This document shows, piece after piece, positions 117-14,047 of a stretch of DNA of 14,047 nucleotides. Numbering within the stretch: the stretch's first letter is position 1; every line of letters starts with the position of its first letter. Source of the DNA: Barnesiella sp. (GTDB taxonomy: Bacteria; Bacteroidota; Bacteroidia; Bacteroidales; Muribaculaceae); contig JAAVEX010000092.1 of the NCBI GenBank assembly GCA_014801065.1, positions 1 through 14,047 on the forward strand, written 5' to 3'. A program made the translations under genes and the position numbers. Under the pieces are notes generated by a model. That model searched no databases and had not been told where the DNA came from. It worked only from the letters and a program-made list of their open reading frames with translations.

Positions 117-257
117 TTCTTTATACTATATGCGAGCTTATTTTTAGAATATTTTGGTGCGGAGAGAAAGAGCATAGCGAGCTATGCGACTGAACGACAA
201 GTCAAAAGAGCAAAAAAGAAGCCGCAGATAGTATAAAAGATCAATGAATTACTTACT
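102..257. repeat. 156-bp giant-hairpin repeat (family B)
   Basis: The element is an imperfect palindrome with two arms of exactly 77 nt (102-178 and 181-257) around a 2-nt loop (179-180). The outer arms match as AGTAAGTA-TTCAT...TTTATACTAT on the left and its complement on the right, with three small indels. Matching continues inward (TGCG, GCTT, T-rich/A-rich tracts) to a perfect cap, GCATAGC-GA-GCTATGC at 172-187. I see no credible ORF. It resembles a MITE-like or structured-RNA repeat. Only one complete copy is present; its left-end sequence recurs at 1194-1210. The second family at 280-451 has the same architecture without sequence similarity. Confidence 0.65.
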
Positions 258-279
258 ATCGTTTAATTTTGAATACTTA

Positions 280-451
280 GAAACTGTTTAAATTTATGTG
301 CGAATGATTTTGAGGATAATTCAGGATGAGTTTTGCAAGTTGAAGAGGGAGCGATGCGGGCATCGTGACCGATAAAACTTGGCAAAAATCGCCTGAAAGA
401 TCATCAAAATCAGAGCATATAAAAATTTTCCACATAAATTTAAACAGTTTC
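280..451. mobile_element. 172-bp MITE-like hairpin element, family A copy 1
   Basis: The 21-bp terminal inverted repeats are perfect and begin GAAACTGTTTAAATTTATGT. TTA at 277-279 and TTA at 452-454 flank the element as a 3-bp target duplication. The interior is also palindromic: the left arm (280-357) and the complement of the right arm (360-451) align over most of their length (shared GATTTTGA, TTCAGG, TTTTGC, AAGTT). They end in the cap CGATGC-GG-GCATCG at 352-365. The right arm carries about 14 extra nt near 418-432. Removing the element and one TTA restores GAATACTTACTT, so it inserted into an older repeat end. A 52-aa minus-strand frame spans it but behaves as non-coding when copies are compared. 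There is no transposase, so it would need to be mobilised in trans. Confidence 0.75.
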
Positions 452-491
452 TTACTTATATTCCAACGAATGTCGGGGCGATAGCCGAGGA

Positions 492-1118
492 TCAGGAGAT
501 TATGCACTCCTCGTCGGAGTTGATGATCCCGTGGATGCTGTAGCGGATACCCGTGTGCTGCCCGGCTGTGTAGACAAATCTTTCGTTTGTTGCGGGGCGT
601 GTCACTTCGTTGAAATAGAGCGGAGCGTTTTGAGTCAGGCTCATACACCGGACGATGTCACCCGGACGGAGGCGTCCGTGATAGGATTCGGCAACCTTAA
701 AAAGACCCTTATCCAGACACACAAGGCTGCATCGGCGGTCGGGAGCCCAACGGATTTCAACTATGCTGCCCGGCATGATATCATCGGTCCGGATGGTGTC
801 TCCCTTGAATTCGGCCGACTGGATGGCACTTTCGTTGTTGTAATGCCGGTTGAAATCATCAAGGTCCCTGTAGCCCAACAGATTGACCAAAGAAATCAGA
901 GTATAGCGATAGGGGCGATACTTGTCAGAAACATCCCGGTTGTAACCCCAGATTCTTTTCAATGTGGAGCCTGAAAGTCTTGTGCCGATTTTTGCCATCT
1001 CCTCGGAGAGATACTCGAAATCCCGAGGAGAACTCATCTTTCTCCCAAGACGCTTCTCGATAGCTAAACACAATTTTGAAATAATATCTCTGTTAACCTG
1101 CAAATGTTTTTCCGCCAT
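492..1118 (-). CDS. Putative DNA-binding regulator, Bacteroidales-specific type
   Basis: A 208-residue cytoplasmic protein with no signal peptide or membrane segment. The N-terminal ~80 residues are helical, with the segment LSGSTLKRIWGY followed by a TL.SLVNLLGYRDLDDF helix. This arrangement resembles a helix-turn-helix-like module seen in many Bacteroidales hypothetical proteins. The C-terminal ~100 residues look beta-rich (PGSIVEIRWAPDRRCSL... RLRPGDIV.. APLYFNEV..). DNA binding is inferred, not shown. I chose ATG at 1116-1118; a GTG two codons upstream (1122-1124) is also possible. The promoter box at 1135-1142 leaves only a very short leader in either case. The gene stands alone between direct copies of the family A element. 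Its own direct-repeat operator candidate (1163-1181) would fit autoregulation. The function is otherwise unknown. Confidence 0.75.
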   Translation of the reverse strand: MAEKHLQVNRDIISKLCLAIEKRLGRKMSSPRDFEYLSEEMAKIGTRLSGSTLKRIWGYNRDVSDKYRPYRYTLISLVNLLGYRDLDDFNRHYNNESAIQSAEFKGDTIRTDDIMPGSIVEIRWAPDRRCSLVCLDKGLFKVAESYHGRLRPGDIVRCMSLTQNAPLYFNEVTRPATNERFVYTAGQHTGIRYSIHGIINSDEECIIS

Positions 1119-1134
1119 GTTCACGATTTTTCTA

Positions 1135-1162
1135 CAAATTTAGTCTTAAGTGGTCAATACAA
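1135..1162 (-). promoter_or_regulatory. Bacteroidales-type promoter of the 492-1118 gene
   Basis: Read on the minus strand, TAAATTTG (1135-1142) matches the Bacteroidales -7 consensus TAnnTTTG. A TTG at 1160-1162 lies 17 bp upstream as a -33 element. The predicted transcription start is near 1129, about 10 nt before the ATG at 1118. Confidence 0.6.
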
Positions 1163-1181
1163 CTTAATCCATCTTAATCCA
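1163..1181 (-). promoter_or_regulatory. Tandem 9-bp direct repeat, candidate operator
   Basis: CTTAATCCA occurs at 1163-1171 and 1173-1181 (plus-strand reading), so the repeat period is 10 bp, about one helical turn. It abuts the upstream side of the -33 element of the only gene this promoter serves. This is a typical position for an activator or autoregulator site. The site is visible; its function is inference. Confidence 0.4.
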
Positions 1182-1193
1182 ACATGATCTCCA

Positions 1194-1218
1194 TAAGTAA
1201 GTATTCATAAATACTTAG
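1194..1218. repeat. 17-bp direct repeat, right copy, inside a short palindrome
   Basis: This repeats the 17 bp of 100-116 exactly (1194-1210) and continues as AATACTTAG, so AAGTATT-CATA-AATACTT forms a small hairpin. ATAAGTAAGTATTC at 1193-1206 is also the inverted complement of the GAATACTTACTTAT that is reconstructed at 271-276 plus 452-459 once the family A insertion is removed. The unit 271-1206 therefore had 14-bp inverted ends. Positions 1219-1333 show no gene or clear signal. Confidence 0.5.
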
Positions 1219-1333
1219 CTAAAATAAGTGGAGGAAACGTCTCATAAGAAGAGATCAACCGTTTTCAAGGCATAATCCCTTCCGAAACATCGGGGATTTT
1301 CGCCATCGTCATCAATTTCACCATACGACAAAT

Positions 1334-1379
1334 AAAAAAACACCATCAGCCCTCGTCCATCATTCTTTTCCTTATGGTG
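1334..1379 (-). terminator. Candidate terminator of the lipoprotein-comM unit
   Basis: Read on the minus strand, CACCAT (1374-1379) pairs with ATGGTG (1341-1346), followed at once by seven T (1334-1340). The stem is only 6 bp and the loop is long (27 nt), so support is moderate. Without the family A copy 2 insertion it would begin about 10 bp after the comM stop codon. It is now about 195 bp away. Confidence 0.35.
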
Positions 1380-1390
1380 ACCAGCCCTAA

Positions 1391-1574
1391 GAAACTGTTT
1401 AAATTTATGTGCGAATGATTTTGAGGATATTTAAGGATGAGTTTTGCAAGTTGAAGAGGGAGCGATGCGGGCATCGTGACCGATAAAACTTGGCAAAAAT
1501 CGCCTGAAAGATCATCAAAATCAGAGCATATAAAAATTTTCCACATAATTTTAAACAGTTTCTTAAACAGTTTC
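1391..1574. mobile_element. 184-bp MITE-like hairpin element, family A copy 2
   Basis: It matches copy 1 in the same orientation with three mismatches over the shared 172 bp (two near 1430-1440, one in the right terminal repeat). The cap CGATGC-GG-GCATCG lies at 1463-1476. The right end carries an extra TTAAACAGTTTC (1563-1574) duplicating the terminal 12 bp. If the element ends at 1574, the flanks are TAA (1388-1390) and TAA (1575-1577), a 3-bp target duplication. If it ended at 1562 they would not match, so the duplicated terminus is treated as part of the element. It abuts the comM stop codon. Confidence 0.7.
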
Positions 1575-3133
1575 TAAAATGGCAAAGATCCTGCCGACGC
1601 GCCCCAGGAGGAGCGGTCGAGGTTGCGGTAGGAGACGGCTTCGCGCATGTGGTGGGGACGAATTTCATGGGAGTTGTCGAGATCGGCTATAGTGCGCGCC
1701 ACTTTGAGGATGCGGTCGTAGGCACGGGCCGACATGTCCAAACGAGTCATGACATCGCGCAGGATAGCCATGGTTTCATCGTCGAGGCGCGCATGCTCGC
1801 GCAGCAACCGTGAGTTCATCTGGGCATTGCAATGGATATGTGGCTCTGACGCAAACCGTTGCTGTTGAATGGCGCGGGCCGCTATCACACGCCGACGTAT
1901 GGCTTCGCTCGTCTCGCTGGTCTGCTCGGAGGTCATATCGTCAAACGCCACAGGCAATATTTCGACCTGAATATCTATGCGGTCAAGCAACGGCCCCGAA
2001 ATCCGGTTGAGATATTTCCTGACAGCCCCCGGCGGACACTCACATGCCTTGGTGGGATGATTATAATAGCCACACGGACAAGGGTTCATACTCGCCACGA
2101 GCATAAATCCGGCAGGATAATCCACCGAATATTTTGCACGCGACACCGTGATCGTGCGATCTTCAAGCGGCTGCCGCATCACTTCGAGCACCGTCCGGCT
2201 GAACTCGGGAAACTCATCGAGAAAAAGTATGCCGTTATGGGCCAGAGATATTTCCCCGGGCATAGGATTAGTGCCACCCCCCACGAGCGCCACGGGCGAA
2301 ATCGTGTGGTGTGGCGACCGAAACGGGCGCCGCGTCATAAGCCTTGAACCCCGAGGCAGCTTTCCCGCCACCGAATGAATCTTAGTGGTCTCCAATGCCT
2401 CCGAAAGCGACAGCGGAGGCAGAACCGACGGCAACCTCTTAGCCATCATTGACTTTCCCGACCCCGGAGGACCCACGAGCAGAATATTATGACCGCCCGC
2501 ACACGCCACCTCAAAGGCTCGCTTCACATTTTCCTGCCCTTTGACCTCACTGAAATCAAAATCGAAATTAGTGCTCTCGGCCGCAAATTCCGCGCGTGTG
2601 TCAACCACCGTTGGCTCCATCGTGCCTTCACCCGACAGAAACTCAACCACCTCACGCAGCGTTTCCGCTCCGTAGACCTTCAGGCGATTGACCACCGCTG
2701 CCTCCGTGGCATTGGCCTTAGGCACGATCATACCCTCAAATCCAAGTTGACGGGCAAGAATAGACATCGGCAGCGCACCGCGGATAGGGAGAATGGAGCC
2801 GTCGAGCGACAGCTCTCCCATGATCATATAGCGCGACAGCCGTTCCGGCTGAAGCTTCTCCGATGCCGCGAGTATACCAATGGCTATCGGCAGATCGTAG
2901 GCCGCTCCCTCCTTGCGCACATCGGCCGGGGCAAGATTGATCACGATATGGCGGCGCGGAAAATCGATTCCGCTCTGCCTCATTGCCGACATCACGCGCT
3001 GATACCCCTCTTTGACTGCCGCATCCGGCAGTCCGACAAGATGATATGCTATACCCTGAGTTGCGGCCACCTCGATGGTGACCCGGATCGCATCGATCCC
3101 CTGGACGGCTGCGCCAAAAGTCTTTACAAGCAT
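1574..3133 (-). CDS. comM: ComM/YifB-family Mg-chelatase-like AAA+ ATPase
   Basis: A 519-residue protein of normal family length, starting with the typical MLVKTFGAAVQGIDA. An N-terminal S5/Lon-protease-like domain (about 1-170, with H31LVGLPD and D71VRKEG) precedes a Mg-chelatase-type AAA+ module. That module has Walker A GPPGSGKS (221-228), RRPFRSPHH (268-276), Walker B ILFLDEF (302-308) and a four-Cys cluster C352xC354...C364xC366. The C-terminal lid carries ARAYDRILKVARTIADL (469-485). In proteobacteria ComM is a hexameric helicase that promotes branch migration when DNA is taken up by transformation; its role in Bacteroidales is not settled. It begins 5 nt after the lipoprotein gene, so the two are probably co-transcribed. 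Its TAG stop uses the terminal base of a repeat insertion at 1574. Confidence 0.95.
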   Translation of the reverse strand: MLVKTFGAAVQGIDAIRVTIEVAATQGIAYHLVGLPDAAVKEGYQRVMSAMRQSGIDFPRRHIVINLAPADVRKEGAAYDLPIAIGILAASEKLQPERLSRYMIMGELSLDGSILPIRGALPMSILARQLGFEGMIVPKANATEAAVVNRLKVYGAETLREVVEFLSGEGTMEPTVVDTRAEFAAESTNFDFDFSEVKGQENVKRAFEVACAGGHNILLVGPPGSGKSMMAKRLPSVLPPLSLSEALETTKIHSVAGKLPRGSRLMTRRPFRSPHHTISPVALVGGGTNPMPGEISLAHNGILFLDEFPEFSRTVLEVMRQPLEDRTITVSRAKYSVDYPAGFMLVASMNPCPCGYYNHPTKACECPPGAVRKYLNRISGPLLDRIDIQVEILPVAFDDMTSEQTSETSEAIRRRVIAARAIQQQRFASEPHIHCNAQMNSRLLREHARLDDETMAILRDVMTRLDMSARAYDRILKVARTIADLDNSHEIRPHHMREAVSYRNLDRSSWGASAGSLPF

Positions 3134-3138
3134 TGGAG

Positions 3139-4167
3139 TTAGTTAGAGCGTTTCAACTGTTTGTCAACGAACCGACGGGCCTGACCTATCGACGGACCGC
3201 GATAGATCGTTCGACCGGCCGAGTCGGCCACTATGAAATAGGGTATGCGGTTGACATCGAGACGGCGCACCGGAGTGGCCGAAACCGATCCCGGAAGCCA
3301 CGCCTGGATCCATCGGGCGCTATCGCCTGATATCGACCTGCGCCATGACGAGGAATCAACAGCCGTCGAAAGCTCCACAGCTGCAAGCTCCGAGCGGTCG
3401 TAGCTGCGCGTCAGATCGCGGAGTGTCGATGCCACCGAATCGCGCTGCTTGCGGTCAGCATCCACGAAACAAAGCAGCGTGGCCGAATGGCGAATAGGAT
3501 TGACGTTGATCATCGAATCATTGCTGCAATAGAGCGTCAGAAACGGTAGCGGCTCATCGCTGACATTGCCCACGTAGGAGGATATGACGGCATTGAAATT
3601 CTGCGTCATTTCAATAGAGCGCACATCCTGTCCGAGCACGGTGAAAAGCGAATCGGCCATAGCCTCATAGCCTTCGCTGCGGAAGCAGGTGACCATCAGC
3701 GCCGTAGCCACCGGCTTGTCAGAGTTTTTCTTAACAAATTCAGCCACAGCCTTATTGATCTTTCCGGCATCCCCTTTCCGTAGAAGTTCATCGTTGTCGG
3801 CCATCCACTTCTGCAGCGCCTCCGAATCGGAATTGCCCGTCACCTTGATGCCCGCCGGATTGTCGAGAGCGCCCTCAATCCTGACCTCATCGCCGTTGGC
3901 CACCACCACAGCGGCAAGGCGCTGATTGTCGGGCGCCACGGTCACTATAGCGAGCGTGGGGCGGGCCGACGATCCCTTAAACTGAAAAACTCCGCTATTC
4001 ATATTGATGGTGGTCGATTTCAGACCGCCGGCAGCATAATAGGTCAGCGTAACGCTACGGTCGCCCGCTCCATCAATCTTTCCGGCGATCACGAATGAAT
4101 CCTTATCGCCACACCCTGTCGCGGCAAAGATTAGGAGCATAGTCAAAAGCGTATGGATATATCTCAT
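3139..4167 (-). CDS. DUF4369-like lipoprotein with degenerate thioredoxin fold
   Basis: A 342-residue lipoprotein. The start MRYIHTLLTMLLIFAATGC gives a lipoprotein signal peptide with C19. The residues after the Cys (GDKD) are acidic, as in Bacteroidetes surface-export signals. The longer frame up to 4239 is rejected because it would cross the promoter. Residues about 24-110 (FVIAGKIDG..SVTLTYY...GVFQFKG) resemble the beta-rich DUF4369 domain found before TlpA/ResA-type thioredoxins. Residues about 225-335 look like a thioredoxin fold with the cis-Pro region IPYFIV (308-313). However, the active-site region reads TLLCFVDADRKQRD (about 230-243) with no CxxC. It is therefore unlikely to be an oxidoreductase and may act as a binding or structural protein. 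It is first gene of a unit with comM, 5 nt apart. Confidence 0.8.
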   Translation of the reverse strand: MRYIHTLLTMLLIFAATGCGDKDSFVIAGKIDGAGDRSVTLTYYAAGGLKSTTINMNSGVFQFKGSSARPTLAIVTVAPDNQRLAAVVVANGDEVRIEGALDNPAGIKVTGNSDSEALQKWMADNDELLRKGDAGKINKAVAEFVKKNSDKPVATALMVTCFRSEGYEAMADSLFTVLGQDVRSIEMTQNFNAVISSYVGNVSDEPLPFLTLYCSNDSMINVNPIRHSATLLCFVDADRKQRDSVASTLRDLTRSYDRSELAAVELSTAVDSSSWRRSISGDSARWIQAWLPGSVSATPVRRLDVNRIPYFIVADSAGRTIYRGPSIGQARRFVDKQLKRSN

Positions 4168-4193
4168 AAGTCGATGATGAACTGTTTGGATAG

Positions 4194-4225
4194 CAAAGGT
4201 AGTCAACCCAAGCGAGTAAAGCAAA
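4194..4225 (-). promoter_or_regulatory. Promoter of the lipoprotein-comM unit
   Basis: Read on the minus strand, TACCTTTG (4194-4201) matches TAnnTTTG, and TTTG (4222-4225) lies 20 bp upstream as the -33 element. This is a full match to the Bacteroidales promoter pattern. The predicted transcription start is near 4187, leaving a leader of about 20 nt before the ATG at 4167. Confidence 0.7.
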
Positions 4226-4287
4226 CATTTTGTCGCCATCCGGCAAAAAAACGAACCGCCGATAGCGTTATTTTTCCCGCAAGTGAG

Positions 4288-4295
4288 TATATTTG
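4288..4295 (+). promoter_or_regulatory. -7 box of pldA
   Basis: TATATTTG matches TAnnTTTG exactly. No clear TTTG is present 17-21 bp upstream, only a T-rich run near 4268-4275. The start of transcription would fall at about 4299-4302, right at the GTG start codon of pldA. This suggests a leaderless or nearly leaderless mRNA. Confidence 0.55.
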
Positions 4296-4299
4296 CAGA

Positions 4300-5145
4300 G
4301 TGAAACCGATCATCCGAACATTTCTTCTGCTCGCAGCCGTCTTTCTTACGACGGCCACTGCCCGTGCGCAGATCGTATCGGAGCAGGGTGAGACTATAGA
4401 CTCCGACAGCCTCCGACGCGACTTCGACAATCAGCCATACTTTGGCCTATACAAAGACAACTACTTCATTTTCGGCGCGCCGATCGGTCAACGACCGACC
4501 AAAGAAAACACCAACGTAAAGTTTCAGATCTCGATTGCCCAGCGTCTGACCCGAAGCACACTCCCCTGGAACACATATCTTTTCCTCTTCTACACACAGA
4601 AAGTGTTCTGGAACGTGCTCGAAAACTCCATGCCGATGACCGACCTCAACTTCAATCCCGGCGTCGGGCTGGTCAAACCGCTGTTTGTCAAAAATCGATT
4701 TATCGGCAAGCTCTTTCTGCTCGTGGAGCATGAGAGCAACGGCCGCGACGGAATCAAATCCCGCTCTTGGAACAAAGTGAGCGTTGGCGCAAACATCATG
4801 ATCGACCCCAACTTCATTGTCCACGGCAAAGCATGGATTCCGATCGTCGACGGAATGTACAATAAAGACATTCTCGACTACAGCGGCATTTATCAGGTGG
4901 GCACATCTTTCTTCACCCCCGACCGCCGATTCGGTGCTTCGGTCACTCTGGTCAAACGCCGGGGATGGTCGCTCAACTACAACACAATAGTGGAGCTGAA
5001 TTATCGTTTATTCAAACGCGACAACCAATATCTGTTTCTTCAATACTACAACGGCTATGGCGAAGGATTGCTCGACTACAAGCAATTCCACTCGATGCTT
5101 CGCCTCGGCATAGTCATCAAACCCAAAATATTCTCGGACTTTTAG
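4300..5145 (+). CDS. pldA: Outer-membrane phospholipase A (OMPLA)
   Basis: A 281-residue outer-membrane beta-barrel that hydrolyses acyl esters of phospholipids. The GTG at 4300 is chosen because the signal peptide KPIIRTFLLLAAVFLTTATARA|Q starts there. An in-frame ATG at 4153 would add 49 non-signal-like residues and lies upstream of the promoter. The catalytic motif is HESNGRDGIKSRSWNK (144-159). H144, S146 and N158 keep exactly the spacing of H142, S144 and N156 in E. coli PldA. The late strand YYNGYGEGLLDYKQ (249-262) matches the family's GYGESLIDYN segment. The family works as a Ca-dependent dimer, normally silent until membrane asymmetry is lost. The protease gene follows 15 nt downstream and is probably co-transcribed. 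Confidence 0.93.
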   Translation: MKPIIRTFLLLAAVFLTTATARAQIVSEQGETIDSDSLRRDFDNQPYFGLYKDNYFIFGAPIGQRPTKENTNVKFQISIAQRLTRSTLPWNTYLFLFYTQKVFWNVLENSMPMTDLNFNPGVGLVKPLFVKNRFIGKLFLLVEHESNGRDGIKSRSWNKVSVGANIMIDPNFIVHGKAWIPIVDGMYNKDILDYSGIYQVGTSFFTPDRRFGASVTLVKRRGWSLNYNTIVELNYRLFKRDNQYLFLQYYNGYGEGLLDYKQFHSMLRLGIVIKPKIFSDF

Positions 5146-5160
5146 AGATTGATTAATGCT

Positions 5161-8100
5161 ATGATAAATAATTTTTTTCGATTAGCCATACTCTCAGTTA
5201 TAGTGTTGGCCACACCCGCCATGACGTATGCGCGAACGATCTCACCCGAAGCAGCGCTCCGGCGTGTGGTGGGTGAACGTTCGGAGTTCAACACTATGAG
5301 CACGGATCCGCGCTCGCACTACGAGCTGCAATACACTTCGCCCGAGGCCGCATACTATGTGTTCAGCACCGGCGACCGTGGCTGCATGATCGTCTCGGGC
5401 GACGATCGCGTGCCGGCATTGCTTGCCGAGATCCCGACCGCGAATTTCGATCCCGACCGCCTGGCCCCGGGTGCGGCATGGCTGCTTGAGGCCTACAGGC
5501 TGCGAATCGCTTCGCTGCCCGCCGACGAAGCCGGCACACAACGGTCAGCGCTCGCCGCCACCGACAATGATATTGCGGCATTATACACCGGCTGGACCGA
5601 CATTGCCCCCCTCATGGAATGTGCATGGAATCAACACTCGCCCTACAACATGCTCTGCCCGATTAAGACCGGCGAAAGGTGTCTGACCGGGTGCGTGGCT
5701 ACAGCCATGGCGCAGATCATACGCACTATCGGCTACGCTCAGACTTCCGGCTATCTCTATCAGGGTTCAGGCAGCGAGAAGGTAGAGTATGACTACGACA
5801 ATACGCCTATAGATTTCGCCAATCTGCTCTCCTCCTACAATTCGCTCGACACCGAGGAATCGAAGCTCGCCGTGGCAAGGCTCATGCTTGCCTGCGGCCT
5901 CAGCGTGGGCATGAGCTACTCCCCTTCCGAAAGCGGAGCTTACAGTTCGGGAGTGGACCACGCTCTGATCAATAATTTTGGCTACGACAAGACCCACACT
6001 CGCTATCTGGCGCGGTCGGACTTCTCCACTGCAAAATGGGAATCGATAATCTTCAAGGAGTTATCGCTCGGACGTCCGGTCTTTTATTCCGCCGATTCCG
6101 GAGTGTCGTCCGGCCACGCTTTCGTGATCGACGGCTACCGCAAGGAGGGCCTGTGGCACGTCAACTGGGGCTGGGGCGGACAGTCCGACGGATATTTTAG
6201 TCTGGCCCTGCTTAGCCCTACCGCCGTCAACTATGGCGACACCAACCGAGGCTACAATATCAACCAGAACCTTGTCAAAGCAGTGCCACCCGGCGCCGAT
6301 CCGGGCATAACGCTGAGCAGCATCTACGGCTCGCTGACGGTGGCATCCGAAGGAAGATACCGGGTGTACTATTCCGGAGGCGGTGTGGCTCACGAAGATG
6401 TATCCCTCGGAGCGGTCATCGTAGCGGAGGGTTCGGACAACATACTGGAGTGGGTACCGTTCTGGACCAATCAATGGCTTGGAGCCAATGTAACGGTCCG
6501 CGACTATAAAAACTATGATTTTACTGATATTTCGCTCCCTGCCGGCGACTATCGCATCTATCCGGCTATTATAAGCCGGGGGGAGGAAACTCCCGAGATA
6601 TGCGCCGAATCCGAAGGGCTCCAACACTACGTGGCGCTGACCGTTACGCCGGCCGGCAAATATGATATCCATAACCCGGAAAGCTCAGTGCAGGCGTCGA
6701 CCCACGAACTTTATCTCTCCGAACTTCTCACCCCTACTCTTTATTCGGGCTACCAATGCGAGTTGCGGTATGTGATCGTCAACAATGGAGGCGCCGACTA
6801 TCTGGGCACGATTCTGCTGCAATTGATTCCCGAAGGAGAAACGCTCCCGGTGTATCAGAAAACCATATTGGGCAATGTGATATCGGGAGGCTTCAATAAA
6901 GTGATGAGCACGATATTCAATGTAGTGGACAGCGACGGACGCAACCTTCCCGCAGGAAGATACAACATTCGATTGACCACCGCATCGGGAGAAGAACTGC
7001 TGAAAGAGCCCTCGACGGAAACCGTAACCGTGGTCAATGGCACGCCTCCGGGCATGCACTCCGGCGGCGGAGACACCGAAGTGTTGAATCCTTCAATGAT
7101 GCCCGAATATCTGGTGAAAGGGGGCGAGTGGTCCCACATTCCTTACATTAACAATGAGCGCACGGGCCGGATCAGGATTGACCTGGTGTTTTCGCCTCAG
7201 GGCTCAAATACCGTGTTGGAGCGACACACTCTCTACGATGGCGAGTTGGGGTCATTAAACGGCACTCTTGGCTTCGAACCCTTTACGATCGATCTGCCGT
7301 TTGGAATATATGATGTGATGTATGAGGCAAACAACATCAACATTTCGGCGCGACGCAGAGTGTATGTAGGCGACCGCATTGACGATCTTTACTATCTGCC
7401 TATTTCGGCCGACCGCGCTGCCCTCTGCTATCATCCCGACCGCGGATATTCGGGCCATATTACGGTAAAACCGCAAATAACGGTTGGCGGATCCTCCTAT
7501 ACCGTAACGGATATAATCGAGAACGCCTTTTCACGCTGCCCGGATCTGACCTCGGTGTCGATTCCCGCTACGGTTACCCACATCGGAAGAAACGCTTTCA
7601 CCTATTGTCCGAATCTTGAAACTCTGCTGTTCGGGGCGAGTGATATTCCCTTTACTCAGCGTAACCACGTGATGCCGGGAGCCGATGAATCGATGGCGAT
7701 ATATGTGCCGGCAACTTCCTACGGCGTTTACAGCGACCTGCTCTCGGCATATCAGCCTGTATATGCCCGAATTGAAAGCATCGCATCATCGAGATTTGTC
7801 ATGAACACGCCGATAGACCATATCGAACTGGCAATCAACCCCATGCATCCGAACATCAACACGGAATTTTCAATCGAGTCCGCCGACAGCGGCATTTCGC
7901 CAATAGAGGTGACAGCGGCCGAGGTGACCGACGGCAAACTCCTGCTGACGGTCGCAGCCACCGGTTCAGGCACCGCCCACTATCTGATACGCAGCGCCCA
8001 GCCTGACGTCGAACCGGCTCTAATTGAAATAACCACCAACGATATTGCCGGTGTGACCGACATCAACGCCGACTGCAGCGACAATAACGAAAAGCTCTAC

Positions 8101-8184
8101 GACCTTCAAGGCCGACGCACCGATTCGCACAGCGGTTTCCGCATCGTCATAACAAATGGACGCGCAAAAGTGATAAAGTATTAG
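5161..8184 (+). CDS. Secreted C10-family (streptopain-like) cysteine protease with LRR
   Basis: A 1007-residue secreted protease. ATG at 5161 gives the signal peptide MINNFFRLAILSVIVLATPAMTYA; a TTG at 5149 is less likely. Residues about 25-135 resemble the Spi-type inhibitory propeptide of C10 peptidases (ISPEAALRRV... YYVFSTGDRGCMIVSGDDRVPALL). The C10 core follows: GCVATAMAQI (nucleophile C178), GHAFVIDGY (H319) and WHVNWGWGGQSDGYF (332-346). A long beta-rich middle (about 380-770) has no recognised motif. A BspA-type leucine-rich repeat (VTDIIENAFSRCPDLTSVSIP..., about 780-835) follows. The C-terminus ends KLYDLQGRR...GFRIVITNGRAKVIKY, a tail type common on exported Bacteroidales proteins and possibly a type IX sorting signal. 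It lies 15 nt downstream of pldA and converges with the DUF2752 gene, leaving 10 bp between stops. Confidence 0.92.
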   Translation: MINNFFRLAILSVIVLATPAMTYARTISPEAALRRVVGERSEFNTMSTDPRSHYELQYTSPEAAYYVFSTGDRGCMIVSGDDRVPALLAEIPTANFDPDRLAPGAAWLLEAYRLRIASLPADEAGTQRSALAATDNDIAALYTGWTDIAPLMECAWNQHSPYNMLCPIKTGERCLTGCVATAMAQIIRTIGYAQTSGYLYQGSGSEKVEYDYDNTPIDFANLLSSYNSLDTEESKLAVARLMLACGLSVGMSYSPSESGAYSSGVDHALINNFGYDKTHTRYLARSDFSTAKWESIIFKELSLGRPVFYSADSGVSSGHAFVIDGYRKEGLWHVNWGWGGQSDGYFSLALLSPTAVNYGDTNRGYNINQNLVKAVPPGADPGITLSSIYGSLTVASEGRYRVYYSGGGVAHEDVSLGAVIVAEGSDNILEWVPFWTNQWLGANVTVRDYKNYDFTDISLPAGDYRIYPAIISRGEETPEICAESEGLQHYVALTVTPAGKYDIHNPESSVQASTHELYLSELLTPTLYSGYQCELRYVIVNNGGADYLGTILLQLIPEGETLPVYQKTILGNVISGGFNKVMSTIFNVVDSDGRNLPAGRYNIRLTTASGEELLKEPSTETVTVVNGTPPGMHSGGGDTEVLNPSMMPEYLVKGGEWSHIPYINNERTGRIRIDLVFSPQGSNTVLERHTLYDGELGSLNGTLGFEPFTIDLPFGIYDVMYEANNINISARRRVYVGDRIDDLYYLPISADRAALCYHPDRGYSGHITVKPQITVGGSSYTVTDIIENAFSRCPDLTSVSIPATVTHIGRNAFTYCPNLETLLFGASDIPFTQRNHVMPGADESMAIYVPATSYGVYSDLLSAYQPVYARIESIASSRFVMNTPIDHIELAINPMHPNINTEFSIESADSGISPIEVTAAEVTDGKLLLTVAATGSGTAHYLIRSAQPDVEPALIEITTNDIAGVTDINADCSDNNEKLYDLQGRRTDSHSGFRIVITNGRAKVIKY

Positions 8185-8194
8185 AGCCGGGGTA

Positions 8195-8578
8195 TCAGCC
8201 CCCGATATTGCGACAGATGGTCCAGATCGCCGTGGCAGCTATTATCACGGCTATTGATGCCGGCGAGAGGATCACTCGGTTTAGCCGAGGAAATCTCTTG
8301 CGCCAAAGCTCCGCCACAAGAGCAGCAAGCATCACCGGGATCATCACGATAAGAAAAGGATTCCGGCGCCACGCCCCGGCGAAATCGCCATGGAGCAGAG
8401 CGTGGATCATCCGCTGCGAGCCACACCCCGGACAGTCAAAACCGGTCAGCGCCTTGATCGGACAGCGTGGCATCAAGCCGGAATCCACATCGACCAGGGC
8501 ATAGAAAAGCAGAAGAGCGATCGCCACTGCAGCCACAACGACTGCCACGATCGCTCTTCGGTCAAATTTTCGGATCAT
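8195..8578 (-). CDS. DUF2752 membrane protein
   Basis: A 127-residue inner-membrane protein with about three hydrophobic segments (8-28, 74-92, 105-123). Between the first and second lies the DUF2752 signature: RCPIKALTGFDCPGCGSQR (38-56) followed by HALLHGDF, with C39, C49 and C52. The biochemical role of DUF2752 is unknown; a metal-binding Cys cluster is conceivable. It is last gene of the dtd operon, 39 nt after the GYF_2/CD225 gene, a pairing I recall from other Bacteroidales. The chosen start is ATG 8576-8578, which keeps IRKF before the first membrane segment. A tandem duplication places a second, out-of-frame ATG 25 nt upstream. Confidence 0.88.
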   Translation of the reverse strand: MIRKFDRRAIVAVVVAAVAIALLLFYALVDVDSGLMPRCPIKALTGFDCPGCGSQRMIHALLHGDFAGAWRRNPFLIVMIPVMLAALVAELWRKRFPRLNRVILSPASIAVIIAATAIWTICRNIGG

Positions 8579-8616
8579 TTACCTTTTCGGGTCTTCGGAT
8601 CATTTACCTTTTCGGG
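8569..8616. repeat. Tandem 23-bp duplication of a start region
   Basis: TTCGGATCATTTACCTTTTC plus GGG occurs at 8569-8591 and again at 8594-8616 with period 25. On the minus strand each copy carries AAAAGGTAAATGATCCG, that is a purine-rich stretch plus an ATG. The downstream ATG (8578) starts the DUF2752 gene. The upstream ATG (8603) is in another frame and gives a 13-codon ORF ending at 8562, overlapping the real start. Confidence 0.85.
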
Positions 8617-8617
8617 A

Positions 8618-9160
8618 TTAGAACAGCCCCAGAACCATTGAAAACGGCATCCACACAAGTCCGACCACAATCGCCACGATCAGCCAGATCTCGGCGCGTT
8701 CGGAAGCTTTCTTAGCTCCTGCATAGTCACCCTCGTTGTATTTCGATGAAACCCTAAGAGAATAGACCAGAGCCACGATGGCGGGCGGCATACAGCAGAG
8801 TATGATCGCCGCTATGGACCATCCGAGATAGGTGGTCGGTCGTTCGGGAATCTCCACCGGGCCGCGCGATTCGATATACGACGGCCGGCTGCTGATCGGA
8901 CCCGCCGCGCGGGTCGGCACCTCAGGCATATTAAACACCGGCGCCTGAGCATGGTCTTCCGCTGCGCTACCACTGCCACATTCAGCATTTTCACTCTCAC
9001 CGGCAAGCGATCCGGCAAGCTCAGGGAGCGTCGAAGCCTTACACCATGTGGCCAGTCCGTTGTGCCACACGAGAGTTTCGGGATCAAGTCGGCGCGAGCG
9101 CACATCGCTGAGCGATAGAGGCCCTATTTTCTTTTTATCTATGGCTATCCAATAATCCAT
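8618..9160 (-). CDS. GYF_2 plus CD225/dispanin-type membrane protein
   Basis: A 180-residue membrane protein. Residues 1-50 form a GYF_2 domain (WIAIDKKKIGPLSLSDVRSR... LVWHNGLATWCKASTLPEL), a small module thought to bind peptides or partners. A Ser/Pro/Ala-rich linker (about 52-106) leads to a CD225 domain: YLGWSIAAIILCCMPPAIVALVYSLRV (111-137, first membrane segment with Cys122-Cys123), the loop SSKYNEGDYAGAKKASERAEIW (138-159), and a second membrane segment (about 157-179). The CD225 layout is that of eukaryotic IFITM/dispanins, but bacterial members have no established function. It starts 12 nt after deoC and sits 39 nt before the DUF2752 gene. Confidence 0.88.
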   Translation of the reverse strand: MDYWIAIDKKKIGPLSLSDVRSRRLDPETLVWHNGLATWCKASTLPELAGSLAGESENAECGSGSAAEDHAQAPVFNMPEVPTRAAGPISSRPSYIESRGPVEIPERPTTYLGWSIAAIILCCMPPAIVALVYSLRVSSKYNEGDYAGAKKASERAEIWLIVAIVVGLVWMPFSMVLGLF

Positions 9161-9172
9161 TATATCAATCTC

Positions 9173-10057
9173 TTAGAAATATTTCGTCTCCTCGCCAAGG
9201 ATCACACTGAGAAGATTGTTGGCAAGACCGCTCGCTCCGATGCGGAAATATTCATTGTCGAGCCACTGCTCGCCAAGCACGTGTTTCACGATCGTATAGT
9301 AGGCCAGTGCCTCATCGGCGGTGCGAACGCCTCCGGCCGGTTTGAAGCCCACCATGCGTCCGGTCTGTTCGTGATACTCCTTGATACACTGACACATCAC
9401 ATAGGCTGCTTCGAGCGAAGCGCCGTCAAATTCCTTGCCGGTAGATGTCTTGATAAAATCAGCGCCGCTATACATGGCCAGAATAGAAGCCGCACGGATA
9501 TTTTCAGCTGTGCGGAGAGCGCCTGTTTCAAGAATCACCTTAAGGTGAGCATCGCGGCATGCGTGTTTGAGTTCCCCGATTTCGTCGCACACTTCTTCCC
9601 AGTCGCCGTCGAGGAAATTACCCACGTTCATCACTATATCGATCTCGTCGGCACCACCTTCCACGGCAAGCGCCGTCTCTGCCACCTTCACTTCGGGGAA
9701 TGTCTGCGAGGCGGGGAAACCGCCCGACACACACGCGATGTTCACTTCCGAAACATCGAGCACCGTGCGCACCACCGGAGCAAAATTGGGATAAACGCAG
9801 ATAGCAGCCACCGGGGGCAGATCGCCGTGGTCCTGCTCAAACTGATTGACACGCTCGGTGAAGCGAGCCACAGACTGAGGCGAGTCGGTGGCTTTGAGCG
9901 TGGTCAGATCGATACAGTTGAAGAGCAGCTTCATGGTGTCGATACTGCGGTTGGCTTCCATTTCGTCAGCAAGGATTTTTGCCACTTCGGCCTTGACTTT
10001 TTCGTCGTCGGTCAGAACGTTGCTTTTCGCAACGGTGTCATGATATTTATCTGCCAT
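9173..10057 (-). CDS. deoC: Deoxyribose-phosphate aldolase
   Basis: A 294-residue class I aldolase cleaving 2-deoxy-D-ribose 5-phosphate to glyceraldehyde 3-phosphate and acetaldehyde, the last step of deoxynucleoside breakdown. Family motifs are clear: ADEIDIVMN (136-144, with D140 as the E. coli D102 equivalent), ADFIKTSTGK (199-208, Schiff-base K203) and GFKPAGGVRT (237-246, K239). The N-terminal ~40 residues are longer than in E. coli, as is usual for the ~290-300-residue subtype. It lies 14 nt downstream of the MazG-like gene and 12 nt upstream of the GYF_2/CD225 gene, so it is in the middle of the operon. Confidence 0.96.
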   Translation of the reverse strand: MADKYHDTVAKSNVLTDDEKVKAEVAKILADEMEANRSIDTMKLLFNCIDLTTLKATDSPQSVARFTERVNQFEQDHGDLPPVAAICVYPNFAPVVRTVLDVSEVNIACVSGGFPASQTFPEVKVAETALAVEGGADEIDIVMNVGNFLDGDWEEVCDEIGELKHACRDAHLKVILETGALRTAENIRAASILAMYSGADFIKTSTGKEFDGASLEAAYVMCQCIKEYHEQTGRMVGFKPAGGVRTADEALAYYTIVKHVLGEQWLDNEYFRIGASGLANNLLSVILGEETKYF

Positions 10058-10071
10058 AACAGGTTTTATAT

Positions 10072-10461
10072 TTATTGATTATTTGATTTTAACTTATCGT
10101 TTTCTCTATGTCTGTCTTTATCTCGAATGGTTTTCTTGTCAAGATTGTTCAGAAAGGCGGATGTCAGATCGATCCCATGCTGATTGGCTATCGCTGCCAC
10201 CACCCAAACCACGTCGGCAAGTTCATCGGCGAGCGCATCGGCAGATTCGCCGGGTTTAAACGACTGATCGCCATCGATCCGGGCTATAAGCCGGGCCACT
10301 TCACCCACCTCCTCGGTCAGCACAGCCATATTGGTCAGCGGAGAGAAATAGCGCACACCGACAGTGCGGATCCAATGGTCAACGGTGTGCTGCACCTCCT
10401 CCACTGTCAGCCCCCGGGGCCGTGGATTTTCCGATATGCCTATGTCTGTACGGTTCATCAT
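10072..10461 (-). CDS. MazG-like nucleotide pyrophosphohydrolase
   Basis: A 129-residue all-alpha NTP pyrophosphohydrolase of the MazG/YpjD type. The metal-binding motif is complete: LTEEVGEVARLI (E50, E51, E54) followed by ADELADVVWVV (E80, D83). Such enzymes hydrolyse (d)NTPs, often damaged ones, to the monophosphate plus pyrophosphate; the substrate here cannot be read from sequence. The charged tail (KKTIRDKDRHRENDKLKSNNQ-like) is typical. Its ATG overlaps the dtd stop codon as ATGA, so translation is likely coupled. A second in-frame ATG follows immediately. Confidence 0.9.
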   Translation of the reverse strand: MMNRTDIGISENPRPRGLTVEEVQHTVDHWIRTVGVRYFSPLTNMAVLTEEVGEVARLIARIDGDQSFKPGESADALADELADVVWVVAAIANQHGIDLTSAFLNNLDKKTIRDKDRHRENDKLKSNNQ

Positions 10462-10910
10462 TCTCTAAGCCGCGAATCGATTATAATGGTCACAGGGCCG
10501 TCATTGACGAGCGCCACTTTCATATCGGCGCCAAACACGCCCTTGTCGACACGTCCGGGTATCAACTGCTGAAGCTTGTCGCAGAAATAGTCGTAGAGCG
10601 GCTTGCTCTCCGCTCCGGCGGCAGCGCGTATGTAGCTCGGACGGTTGCCCTTGCGCGTTGAGGCCGTCAGCGTGAACTGACTGATGGCAAGAACATCGCC
10701 ATGAATGTCGGTCACCGAGCGGTTCATCACCTCATTGTCGTCGGGAAAAATGCGCATAGCGGCCGTCTTTGCGGCGAGCCAGTCGGCATCCTCACGCGTA
10801 TCGCCGCACTCAACGCCGACCAACACCATCAACCCGGTGCCGATCGACCCGCGCAGCTGGCCGTCGACCGTGACCGACGCGCTGCTCACCCGTTGTAGGA
10901 CAAGTCTCAT
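10458..10910 (-). CDS. dtd: D-aminoacyl-tRNA deacylase
   Basis: A 150-residue enzyme of typical DTD length that removes D-amino acids (and mischarged glycine) from tRNA. The start MRLVLQRVSSASVTVDG is the standard one. The active-site motifs SQFTL (77-81) and NDGPVT (136-141, the Gly-cisPro motif) are both intact. KGNRPSY (87-93) is also family-typical. It is first gene of the operon dtd - MazG-like - deoC - GYF_2/CD225 - DUF2752 and overlaps the next gene by 4 nt. The leader is very short if the box at 10920-10927 is the promoter. Confidence 0.96.
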   Translation of the reverse strand: MRLVLQRVSSASVTVDGQLRGSIGTGLMVLVGVECGDTREDADWLAAKTAAMRIFPDDNEVMNRSVTDIHGDVLAISQFTLTASTRKGNRPSYIRAAAGAESKPLYDYFCDKLQQLIPGRVDKGVFGADMKVALVNDGPVTIIIDSRLRE

Positions 10911-10919
10911 TTCTTATCG

Positions 10920-10927
10920 CAAACTTA
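10920..10927 (-). promoter_or_regulatory. -7 box of the dtd operon
   Basis: Read on the minus strand, TAAGTTTG matches TAnnTTTG. No matching TTTG lies 17-21 bp further upstream. Transcription would begin around 10914, only a few nt before the dtd ATG (10910). Confidence 0.5.
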
Positions 10928-10948
10928 ATAAAAATCTTCAAAAATGTC

Positions 10949-10956
10949 TATATTTG
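10949..10956 (+). promoter_or_regulatory. -7 box of the GH123-like gene
   Basis: TATATTTG matches TAnnTTTG and is identical to the pldA box. The transcription start would be near 10962, about 36 nt before the ATG at 10998. The -33 region would fall on the -7 box of the divergent dtd promoter. Confidence 0.5.
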
Positions 10957-10997
10957 CAATATAATTTTTTCTCATCAGCTAATCTTCAACAACTGCC

Positions 10998-12749
10998 ATG
11001 ACACGATTTCTACTGTCATTAGCCCTTATGACATCGATCGGAGCCGCAGCGGCCGCGCCCGCTTCCGGGACATACTCCGAACCGGCCGACACTTCGACCG
11101 TCGACACTTCGGGCTGGGCCTCACTCTCCGGTCCGACACGCCTTTCATGGGCTTCAAAAAACATCCACTACCGCCAGCGCGCCACTCCTCCGCAGATAGC
11201 TTGCAGCGACACCACGGTCAACGCCTGGCGCGGCGAACGCCTCGGCCTCGAAGCGCTTCTGATCAGTCCTGAAGGATGCGGCCCGCTCCGCCTGAGCCTC
11301 TCCGACCTCCGTCAGGGCAACCGCACATACCGCGCTCCCGGCAGTCAGGCTTCATTCATGCGCTATGTCACCTCGACCTCCTGGAATGCCTGCGGCTATC
11401 CGCCCGACACGCTCCCAACGTTTACCGTGGCCGATATGATCGACCTTCCCGATGCAACAGTGGCTATGCAACCGGCCACAGTGCGCCCGATATGGCTCAC
11501 CGTCGAAGTGCCCGACAATCTGCGCCCGGGAGCCTACACCATGACCCTCACCGCCACCGATACAAAAAGCGGCAAAGAAGCAGGCCGGCTCGACCTTACC
11601 ATCAATGTCAGCAAGCACTCTCTGCCCGCCGGGCCCGATCAGGCATTTTATCTCGACCTGTGGCAGCAGCCCTATTCCGTGTCCCGCTACTACGGCGTGA
11701 AGCCCTGGAGCGACGAACACCTCAAACTCATGGACCCCTACATGGAAAAACTCGCGCGTGCAGGCCAGAAAGCTGTGTCAGTGATCCTCTTCTACGAACC
11801 CTGGGGCGAACAAAGCAACGATAAGTTTGAACCGATGGTGGAGACCTACCGCCGGCCCGACAGCACCTGGCGCTTTGACTACACCACATTTGACCGCTGG
11901 GTCGACTATATGGACAGCCACGGCATCAACGCCAATCTCGAATGTTTCACCATGGTGCCCTGGCAACCAACCTACCGCTACCGCGATGAGGCGACAGGCG
12001 AACTGCGCACCCTCGAAGCACGCCCGGGATCGGAGAGCTACAACGACCTGTGGTCCACGTTCCTGACAGATTTCGCATCCCACCTGCGCAAGCGCGGTCT
12101 TTTCGATAAGACAATGATTGCGATGGACGAACGTGGCCTGACCGACATGCTCGCCGCCTACAGAATAGCGAAGACCACCGTGCCCGATCTGAAAATGTCG
12201 CTCGCCGGATCATATCATCCCGAGCTGGTCGACTCGCTCGATTGCTATACGCTGATCAAGGGCGATTTCTTCCCCGACGATGTCATTAAACGCCGCCGCG
12301 ACAAAGACCGCCTGACACTGATGTACACCTGCTGCGCCACTCCCGCGCCGAGCCAGTTCAGCAACAGCGCTCCGGCCGACGGTGCCTATCTCCCCGTCTA
12401 TGCCACGGCCACCGGCCACGACGGCTACCTCCATTGGTCGTACATGAACTGGACCGACAATCCGCTGGAGGACACCCGCTTCCACATGTTTGCTCCGGGC
12501 GACACCTACTTTATCTATCCCGACGGACGCTCCTCGCTCCGCTACGAGCGGATGGTTGAAGGAATCCAGATGAGCGAGAAGATCCGCCTGCTGCGCGAAG
12601 ATATGCGCCGCCGCTGCGACATCGACGGACTGCAGAGCCTTGAAAATGCCCTGATCCCCATTCGCTCGGGCGCTCTCAACGAGTGGTATCCCACATCGAC
12701 CGTGGTCGATCACCTTCAGCAGACCATCGACGAGCTTTCACGCCGCTGA
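10998..12749 (+). CDS. Secreted GH123/DUF4091-type glycosidase
   Basis: A 583-residue exported protein. The signal peptide MTRFLLSLALMTSIGAAAAA is followed by a beta-rich N-terminal domain (about 45-205) ending in VSKHSLP. A TIM-barrel-like region follows (about 215-480: FYLDLWQQPYSVSRYYGV, SVILFYEPWG, NLECFTMVPW). MIAMDERGL carries the adjacent acid pair D377-E378. This matches the catalytic Asp-Glu of GH123 beta-N-acetylgalactosaminidases, which use substrate-assisted catalysis. The end NPLEDTRFHMFAPGDTYFIYPDG...YERMVEGIQ (488-524) is the DUF4091 signature. A role in trimming GalNAc from host or microbial glycans is inferred; the actual substrate is unknown. It is monocistronic, with a strong terminator 24 nt downstream. 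Confidence 0.9.
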   Translation: MTRFLLSLALMTSIGAAAAAPASGTYSEPADTSTVDTSGWASLSGPTRLSWASKNIHYRQRATPPQIACSDTTVNAWRGERLGLEALLISPEGCGPLRLSLSDLRQGNRTYRAPGSQASFMRYVTSTSWNACGYPPDTLPTFTVADMIDLPDATVAMQPATVRPIWLTVEVPDNLRPGAYTMTLTATDTKSGKEAGRLDLTINVSKHSLPAGPDQAFYLDLWQQPYSVSRYYGVKPWSDEHLKLMDPYMEKLARAGQKAVSVILFYEPWGEQSNDKFEPMVETYRRPDSTWRFDYTTFDRWVDYMDSHGINANLECFTMVPWQPTYRYRDEATGELRTLEARPGSESYNDLWSTFLTDFASHLRKRGLFDKTMIAMDERGLTDMLAAYRIAKTTVPDLKMSLAGSYHPELVDSLDCYTLIKGDFFPDDVIKRRRDKDRLTLMYTCCATPAPSQFSNSAPADGAYLPVYATATGHDGYLHWSYMNWTDNPLEDTRFHMFAPGDTYFIYPDGRSSLRYERMVEGIQMSEKIRLLREDMRRRCDIDGLQSLENALIPIRSGALNEWYPTSTVVDHLQQTIDELSRR

Positions 12750-12772
12750 TCATCAATTCTACATAAAATTCA

Positions 12773-12810
12773 CGAGGGAGAAACCGTTCATCGCAGCGGT
12801 TTCTCCCTCG
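12773..12810. terminator. Bidirectional terminator
   Basis: A perfect 14-bp stem, CGAGGGAGAAACCG (12773-12786) with CGGTTTCTCCCTCG (12797-12810), has a 10-nt loop. It lies midway between the convergent stops of the GH123-like gene (12749) and rlmN (12835). The sequence after the stem is richer in T on the minus strand (GTGAATTTTATG) than on the plus strand, so rlmN termination may be the stronger of the two. Confidence 0.85.
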
Positions 12811-12834
12811 CGTTATATCTCTATATTTCGAGCG

Positions 12835-13872
12835 CTATTGTTTTTTCTTGCCGGCCAGCATGCCGCAGGCAGCCATGATATCCTCGCCACGCGAGGCGCG
12901 AATGGTGGCTGTGATGCCACGCTCGTTGAGCCTGTCGCGGAAGGCAACCATGGTTCGCTCGGTGGCCGACTGCAGATCGACCCCTTCGAAAGCATGGAAG
13001 CGGATCAGATTGACGCGACAGCTCATGCCGCGCAGCAGCCGCGCCAACGCATCGGCATGGCGGAGATCGTCGTTGACCCCCCGCCACATTATATATTCAA
13101 CCGACAGACGGCGCTGATGAGCCCAGTCGTAATGTCGCAGCAGATCAATCACGGCCGTAAGCGGATAGGCTTTCTCCACCGGCATCAGCCCCTCGCGTTC
13201 AGCGGAAAAAGGAGAATGGACACTGATGGCGATATGCACCTGAGTGTTTTCGATCAGATGGCGGAGCGCATCGAGCTTGCCTATGGAAGAAACAGTGATG
13301 CGCTTCGGACTCCAGGCAAAACCCCAGCGCGAAGTCATCACCTCGATAGCCTGTTCTACGGCCTGAGGATTGTCCATAGGCTCTCCCATACCCATAAACA
13401 CAATGTTGGTCAACCGCTCACTCTCCTGCACCGACATGATCTGATTAATGATATCTCTTGCGGTCAGATTGCCGTGGAATCCCTGCCGACCGGTCATGCA
13501 AAACGAACAGTTCATCTTGCATCCGGCCTGCGAACTGACACAAAGAGTGGCGCGGTCGCCATCAGGGATCATCACCGTCTCAATGTCGCGGCTCCCTACA
13601 CCGTCAAAGAGATATTTGACAGTGCCGTCGACCGACACCGTGCGCAGCTTGGGCACCGTTTTTCCAACGCAATAGGCGGCTTTCAGCCTTTCGCGGCCGG
13701 CCAGAGAAATATCTGTCATTTCGTCGATCGAGCTTACCCGACGCACATACAGCCACCTGGCCATCTGCCCGGCAGCAAAACGAGGCAATGAACATTCGGC
13801 AGCCACACGCTCAAGATCGGCGAGCGTCATCCCAATCATAGGGCGCAGATTTTCAGAACTTTGCATAACCAT
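12835..13872 (-). CDS. rlmN: 23S rRNA (adenine-2503-C2)-methyltransferase
   Basis: A 345-residue radical SAM methyltransferase that modifies A2503 of 23S rRNA (and A37 of some tRNAs in E. coli), aiding translational accuracy. TLCVSSQAGCKMNCSFC carries C111 (E. coli C118 equivalent) and the 4Fe-4S cysteines C118, C122 and C125. MGMGEPMDN (160-168) is the SAM-binding GGEP-like motif. C336 in SRGEDIMAACGML is the methyl-carrying cysteine (E. coli C355 equivalent). All catalytic residues are present. The ATG at 13870-13872 is preferred; another in-frame ATG lies two codons later. No convincing TAnnTTTG box is visible in the 18 bp between the ATG and the family A element, so its promoter may lie in or beyond the insertion. 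Confidence 0.96.
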   Translation of the reverse strand: MVMQSSENLRPMIGMTLADLERVAAECSLPRFAAGQMARWLYVRRVSSIDEMTDISLAGRERLKAAYCVGKTVPKLRTVSVDGTVKYLFDGVGSRDIETVMIPDGDRATLCVSSQAGCKMNCSFCMTGRQGFHGNLTARDIINQIMSVQESERLTNIVFMGMGEPMDNPQAVEQAIEVMTSRWGFAWSPKRITVSSIGKLDALRHLIENTQVHIAISVHSPFSAEREGLMPVEKAYPLTAVIDLLRHYDWAHQRRLSVEYIMWRGVNDDLRHADALARLLRGMSCRVNLIRFHAFEGVDLQSATERTMVAFRDRLNERGITATIRASRGEDIMAACGMLAGKKKQ

Positions 13873-13890
13873 AGCATATTTATGATTTCA

Positions 13891-14047
13891 GAAACTGTTT
13901 AAATTTATGCAAAAAGTTTTTATATGCTCTGATTTTAATGATCTTTCAGGCGATTTTTGCCAAGTCTTATCGGTCACGATGCCCGCATCGCTCCCTCTTC
14001 AACTTGCAAAACTCATCCTGAAATATCCTAAAAATCTTTCGCACATA
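13891..14047. mobile_element. MITE-like hairpin element, family A copy 3 (cut by window end)
   Basis: It is inverted relative to copies 1 and 2, begins GAAACTGTTTAAATTTATG and is preceded by TCA (13888-13890), fitting a TNA target site. The interior matches the complement of copies 1 and 2 with about ten substitutions, the most diverged copy here. The cap CGATGC-CC-GCATCG lies at 13977-13990. The last bases (CGCACATA) are the start of the second terminal repeat, so only about 15 bp plus the second target duplication are missing. It lies 18 bp upstream of the rlmN start codon. Confidence 0.75.

Follow-up and report, generated by a model that had tools for sequence, protein, structure and literature searches.

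The 14,047-nt stretch of DNA analysed here (the window), which is the complete contig C92 of a draft genome of Barnesiella sp. (G000; 1.9 Mb, 96 contigs, 76% complete), carries three copies of a repeat, family A, that are miniature inverted-repeat transposable elements (MITEs) of the IS5 kind, mobile by transposition. The interior of these elements is occupied by an imperfect hairpin of approximately 117 nt, and comparison among its relatives indicates that selection acts on it as one folded strand, the one read inward from the element end, with repeated G·A pairs flanking an apex that is conserved. Leaving aside what the hairpin does, we hold it highly probable that these are MITEs mobilised by an IS5-type enzyme and that their hairpin folds on one strand.

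In the 1.9-Mb draft the 13-mer end GAAACTGTTTAAA of the family A repeat was counted 73 times and its reversed control not at all, which excludes chance. At least 41 family A places were found in G000 at 81-100% identity, pieces included, a lower bound as 40 of 95 candidates were scored. Both edges were usable in 27 of these places, and 20 of the 27 had an identical TNA trinucleotide (N, any base) on the two sides; TNA stood on both sides in 24, and the remaining pairs were GAA/TAA, a TNA with an unread base/TTA, and TAA/TTT. A single usable edge was left in 13 places (TNA in 12, TCG in the other) and none in one place. The element is 172 bp long, and copy 1 has arms of 22 nt that are 100% identical (279-300/431-452, with one flanking A/T counted in). 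Identity to copy 1 is 98% for copy 2 and 94% for copy 3.

Copy 1 lies within a second element, family B, where the filled site reads GAATACTTA[MITE]TTACTTA (GAATAC-TTA[MITE]TTA-CTTA); its empty counterpart is GAATACTTACTTA in the intact family B elements of loci L281 and L171, and a related site is intact in L129. Another family A copy (L027) sits within a MITE of family C, of which other copies are uninterrupted, with GAA at the left and TAA at the right edge of the insertion. These empty sites come from within one genome or genus, not from a comparison between strains. A sequence-only reading of the window had claimed transposition with duplication of a TNA target and had named the tabulation of flanking trinucleotides as a check; the genome-wide edges and the empty sites in other repeats both back it. 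All three copies were found where that reading had placed them, and the edges of copy 1 (TTA/TTA) and the visible edge of copy 3 (TCA) were as it described. For copy 2 the claimed TAA/TAA holds with the end at 1574, which includes a second 12-bp right tip, and the end of the body at 1562 gives TAA/TTA. The earlier account was right in its observation, but it overlooked the internal hairpin, the family B element that hosts copy 1 and a family C end at the contig edge.

Some very short elements of 41-70 bp consist of little beyond two family A ends (L064 1501-1541, L066 1501-1554, L058 1501-1570). Many contigs of G000 terminate in these repeats (for example C16, C31, C48, C51, C66, C83, C87, C92 and C95), and because so many contigs end inside them the assembly seems to break on the repeats, so that the copy numbers are probably underestimates.

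The element begins with a terminal repeat of approximately 24 bp; the hairpin, starting 23-24 bp inside the element end, and a spacer of variable length follow, and the second terminal repeat closes it. Folding of the window copy gives a single hairpin (z -11.8 as DNA, -11.1 as RNA). Its apex follows the pattern GAGC-NNNN-loop-NNNN-GYGACYGA, with further GA steps on the flanks, and recurs in family B, in family C, in MITEs of the genus with other ends and in the ends of insertion sequences (ISs). Among 98 non-redundant apex contexts, 68 elements had a detectable terminal repeat, and the outer end lay 69-71 bp from the apex in 51 of them (50-94 bp scanned), despite a total element length that varies (for example 162, 172, 183, 193 and 240 bp); the choice of ends in this survey, as in the loci outside the model discussed below, favoured TNA edges. 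The same hairpin is also found with a further class of ends, AGGTGNGTTCTATAAATT and TAAGTAAGTATTC, in L250, L210, L236, L245, L193, L251 and in the window at about 100-458.

The same spacing is seen in ISs. A 116-position model of the hairpin (R2) was run on four chance loci and on 15 ISs of the IS5 type with known ends; the 15 are those in which ends were found, near-copies included, and transposase matches lacking recognisable ends were left out. R2 matched 17 ends on 11 of the 15 ISs (L084, L104, L113, L118, L096, L107, L116, L102, L103, L095 and L101), at both ends in six and at one end in five. The distance from the IS end to the start of the match is exactly 24 bp in 16 cases and 25 bp in one, and TTA or TAA stands outside all 17; five of these ends are in the model alignment and some others are near-copies of them. 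In the chance locus L197 the model gave E 0.051. Just inside the hairpin a similar stretch, roughly GAGRCGANGGTAA, was noted at L084, L104, L096, L107, L116, L102, L103, L095 and L101 (MITEs not searched). In L084, L104 and L118 (3 of 22 IS ends, one IS type) the hairpin is followed directly inward, on the transposase side, by a TANNTTTG box, presumably a Bacteroidota promoter motif; the box is not general.

The fold is kept while the sequence changes. In 28 divergent sequences all 13 arm pairs outside the apex had two-sided changes, and 91.2% of the arm cells were paired, against 62.2% (standard deviation 1.7) after shuffling and at most 61.3% after sliding; these counts are inflated by the relatedness of the sequences. 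The claim of covariation rests on the arms, because the apex sequences were collected through a stem filter, which biases covariation in the apex and did not use the arms. The mismatches that remain, counted with the arms aligned by plain identity and the apex excluded, are one-sided. Thirty representatives had 163 G·A, 7 C·U, 80 G·U and 24 A·C mismatches, with G·A exceeding C·U in every one of them and G·U exceeding A·C in 22 (the reverse in three). The corresponding counts were 95, 1, 47 and 16 in 17 more distant representatives, and 83, 2, 33 and 21 in 16 matches outside the model alignment. As the arm mismatches are G·A and not C·U, it is one strand that folds. The G·A steps are clustered at certain distances from the apex. 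The inward strand also folded better than its complement at all 17 hairpin-bearing IS ends (at one by only 1 kcal/mol) and in all nine MITEs tested.

The enzyme that moves family A in trans is probably an IS5-family DDE transposase. The IS5 link is good by kind, because ISs of the same genus with related ends have TNA-type edges and IS5-family transposases. The IS of locus L082 (891 bp, edges TAA/TTA, ends GAGAGTGTTTGAATTTAAA) encodes a 259-aa transposase that scores 182.6 bits with NF033580, the IS5-family model with a cut-off of 110 bits; that of L080 (896 bp, TTA/TTA, ends GAGGGTGTTTCATAAC) encodes one of 264 aa with 175 bits, and that of L084 (1117 bp, TTA/TTA) scores 136.3 bits. DDE_Tnp_1 is present in all three transposases. 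The ends GAGCCTGTTCCATAATATTTG are common to the ISs of L084 and L104, further ISs of the genus have other ends, and an IS from another family of the same order (L310) has GAGGTTGTTTAAATTT at one end and TAA on both sides. The ends of the congeneric ISs are related, not identical, to those of family A, and a near-exact match exists for the sister family C of G000 only, which agrees with the L082 IS in 19 of the first 20 and all 27 of the last 27 bases. A trans-acting IS5-like transposase, as the sequence-only reading had proposed, is therefore supported by kind, though an IS with the exact ends was not found. The window was said to hold no transposase, and Pfam indeed detected no transposase domain in the 10 reading frames scanned (of 59 listed, at least 60 aa). 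A full-length IS5-type frame of the genus near a contig start (L284, 282 aa) had no element ends that could be found, and the fetched loci held no autonomous partner for B- or D-type ends. Partner candidates on viral contigs were rejected: 80 of 85 stretches were fetched, and two convergent pairs without TNA edges were taken as chance. The apex pattern had no match among the viral contigs.

Several observations weigh against the reading given here. Searches with PF01609 in 41 genomes, with NF033580 and the G017 transposase (the enzyme of a genus genome whose IS nearly has family C ends) in 34 genus genomes and with NF033580 at E 1e-30 in 149 genomes of the order, and a scan for paired ends in the fetched loci, yielded no full-length IS that has exactly the family A end GAAACTGTTTAAATTT. 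G000 itself, an incomplete and fragmented draft, had no match to NF033580 or to the G017 transposase, and its single PF01609 match is a 533-aa frame on contig C96. In the part of PMC4482050 used here the duplication of bacterial IS5 is taken as ANT, not TNA. R2 found no hairpin at any of the eight ends of L082, L080, L310 and L312, which have full-length transposase frames (the sole R2 match in locus L082 is a MITE, not an IS end), so IS5-type transposition as a whole does not depend on the hairpin. The transposase frames of all 11 hairpin-bearing ISs are short or interrupted, so that none of them is shown as an active donor, and the genus ISs with full-length frames and known ends (L082 and L080) are without the hairpin. 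The inward strand was the better folded one also at 7 of 13 IS ends that have no hairpin (3/8 and 4/5), which makes this a weak test alone. The excess of G·U over A·C is not significant outside the model (33 vs 21, p = 0.13), and this makes RNA less clearly favoured over single-stranded DNA. Finally, the genes around the copies, assigned by a crude reading-frame rule that left 13 of 41 copies unassigned, are most often divergent (12 of 28 assigned) and convergent in 4 of 28.

As to what the hairpin does, our tentative preference, which falls a little short of an even chance, is that it acts as a structure in read-through RNA. An IS5-family DDE transposase from elsewhere would cut at TNA, leave the 3-bp duplication and move the MITE in trans. 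The hairpin itself is a shared module: terminal repeats of many kinds have it behind them, and many IS5-type ISs have it at one end or at both. A neighbouring promoter would then read into the element, where the hairpin could fold in the RNA and limit the effect of read-through at the element. In IS10 and IS50, hairpins guard the transposase against read-through transcripts. The G·U excess in the main sets, the absence of the hairpin from some related ISs and its nearness to gene starts are points for RNA. A role as terminator was rejected, since the commonest gene arrangement is divergent and few assigned copies lie between convergent genes; no T run follows the hairpin in the window copies.

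The hairpin might instead belong to the DNA level of transposition, formed in extruded or lagging-strand single-stranded DNA and bound by the transposase or a host protein, and this we regard as possible, if somewhat doubtful. It would explain the fixed, inward-facing position directly inside the terminal repeat, the presence at both ends of six hairpin-bearing ISs, the retention in MITEs that have no transposase gene and the weak G·U excess outside the model. However, related IS5-type ISs, among them one with nearly family C ends, do without the hairpin at both ends, and the MITEs have just one copy of it each. The results are compatible with a fold in either RNA or single-stranded DNA.

Regulation of the messenger of the parent IS transposase, as a 5' leader or as antisense, with the hairpin of the MITEs as a leftover, appears unlikely. 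One of the hairpins of L084 is situated immediately upstream of the transposase region, and a precedent exists in ISPpu9, the transposase of which is controlled by a structured 5' leader according to the part of PMC8450116 used here. Still, the hairpin is found at the other IS end too, its pairing and spacing are kept in MITE families across several genera, and the TANNTTTG box inside the hairpin in the three ISs named above would leave the hairpin out of the message. Much less credible is a palindrome working as double-stranded DNA, either as a binding site for a dimer or simply as elongated terminal repeats. Its arms would be largely complementary, as they are here, and a dimer site would covary too, but it predicts no bias such as that of G·A over C·U; moreover, the apex has GA on both sides and not GA/TC, and an IS end by itself contains a hairpin. 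Palindromes of the REP/RAYT type, or copies spread by recombination and not by DDE transposition, would likewise be palindromic, largely intergenic and numerous, yet the defined terminal repeats, the 3-bp TNA duplications and the clean empty sites make this explanation negligible, and the inverted repeats with target duplication do not fit membership of IS200/IS605 (TnpA) or REP/RAYT.

The apex model matched 19 of 34 genus genomes, with 85 matches in G000 and 28 to 64 in each of five other congeneric drafts. In wider sets it matched 4 of 149 genomes of the order and 1 of 395 genomes of the phylum (G000 counted, the phylum match being G000 itself). A longer model reached 24 of 393 order genomes and 17 of 207 genera (G000 counted). 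Twenty of its loci were fetched and 18 examined, 16 of them outside the alignment (L324 is from G000, and L341 was left out); a terminal repeat was detected by script in 16 of the 18, and in 13 of these 16 loci the element start preceded the model by 23-25 bp, with TNA on both sides in nine. A pattern scan of named genomes found the apex in Candidatus Minthenecus merdequi (Paludibacteraceae), in an element with other ends, and likewise with other ends in records labelled Prevotellamassilia timonensis, Muribaculaceae, Rikenellaceae, Salinivirgaceae and Prevotella. The scan gave 76 matches, of which 68 had Watson-Crick pairs at all three free positions, one had a G·U and seven were incompletely paired; its pattern contained one purine in excess and so misses the apex type of the window itself. 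Of the seven, L197, L226, L233 and L244 appear to be fortuitous matches within coding sequence, and the other three are L209, L225 and L240. A binning error is suspected for L245, which is labelled archaeon and has a MITE like those of Paludibacteraceae.

Rfam 15 gave no match at the gathering score in the window and four sub-threshold matches at a relaxed threshold in 90-1600 (best E 0.39), and no open-licence paper was found that announces the hairpin module in its title or the opening of its abstract. To our knowledge no such module has been described for the IS5-family DDE transposons. The 3-bp TNA duplication is characteristic of the IS1031-type branch of the IS5 family, which the congeneric ISs, candidates for this subgroup, resemble also in their IS5-family-scoring transposases and in ends that begin with GA and have TGTTT or TGTTC; we know of no terminal hairpin as a feature of that branch. 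In IS200/IS605 elements, too, a hairpin specific to one strand stands at a constant distance from the element end, but these elements have neither inverted repeats nor target duplication, both of which are present in family A.

MITEs with IS5-type ends are already known in Bacteroidales. In the part of PMC4596501 used here, Porphyromonas gingivalis has the MITEs MITEPgRS/MITE464, MITE239 and BrickBuilt, with terminal repeats matching ISs of the IS5 family (ISPg1, ISPg3 and ISPg4), and the ISPg4 end GAGACTGTTGCA agrees with GAAACTGTTTAA in 9 of 12 positions (PMC4596501). Long stem-loops are predicted for BrickBuilt as well, but from its direct repeats, and it differs in duplications of varying length and a minisatellite interior; a hairpin at a fixed end distance across families is not described in that part of the paper (PMC4596501). 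The eukaryotic PIF/Harbinger-related PHIS elements have DDE transposases that are compared with bacterial IS5, and two groups have 3-bp TWA or TNA duplications, but the sections of that source drawn on here describe no shared internal hairpin (PMC4482050). In Cardinium, MITECca01 is another Bacteroidota MITE related to an IS (ISCca4) and has palindromic inverted repeats, but ISCca4 is listed there, in the part used, as of the IS982 family (PMC9769881). It would thus be the hairpin module, with neither a match in Rfam 15 nor a description found, that sets the present elements apart.

We see an even chance that the hairpin constitutes an undescribed class of structured nucleic acid, rich in G·A, folded on one strand, recurrent in IS5-type ends of Bacteroidales and passed among families with different ends, so that each MITE would in effect be a mobile gene for a structured RNA (or single-stranded DNA) enclosed in IS5 ends. 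MITEs are commonly regarded as little more than a pair of ends with filler between them; here the filler is a fold kept across families with different ends, at a constant spacing from the end, and it shows selection on one strand. If the hairpin acts in transposition, a strand-specific element would be added to a double-strand mechanism, and if it acts as RNA, it would be a mobile structured RNA. Either role could be tested with small plasmid constructs.

Table 1. Repeat elements and hairpin modules in the window; the edges of family B are taken from intact copies.
Feature	Position	Strand	Remarks
MITE family A, copy 1	280..451	+	172 bp; TTA duplication; within right end of family B element
MITE family A, copy 2	1391..1574	+	172-bp body to 1562 plus 12-bp right-tip repeat; TAA both sides
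MITE family A, copy 3	13891..14047	-	cut by contig end; TCA edge
Hairpin module, copy 1	303..419	+	98.3 bits; 23 bp from element end; part of model alignment
Hairpin module, copy 2	1414..1530	+	94.0 bits; 23 bp from element end
Hairpin module, copy 3	13923..14039	-	98.3 bits
MITE family B, ends TAAGTAAGTATTC...	100..458 (approximate)	+	split by copy 1 plus one TTA duplication; same hairpin
Hairpin module, family B	124..239	+	75.7 bits; part of model alignment
Family C element end (GAGAGTGTTTGAATTT)	6..21	-	at contig edge

Two of the copies (Table 1) are close to genes. Copy 3 lies 18 bp upstream of the start of an RlmN-type reading frame, and the repeated right tip of copy 2 (1562-1576) runs into the 3' end of a ChlI/ComM-type frame (1574-3133, minus strand), the stop codon of which is made of the TA of the copy 2 target site and the first base of the element. 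Elsewhere in the window, a 23-bp direct repeat is found at 8569-8616 in two copies 2 bp apart.

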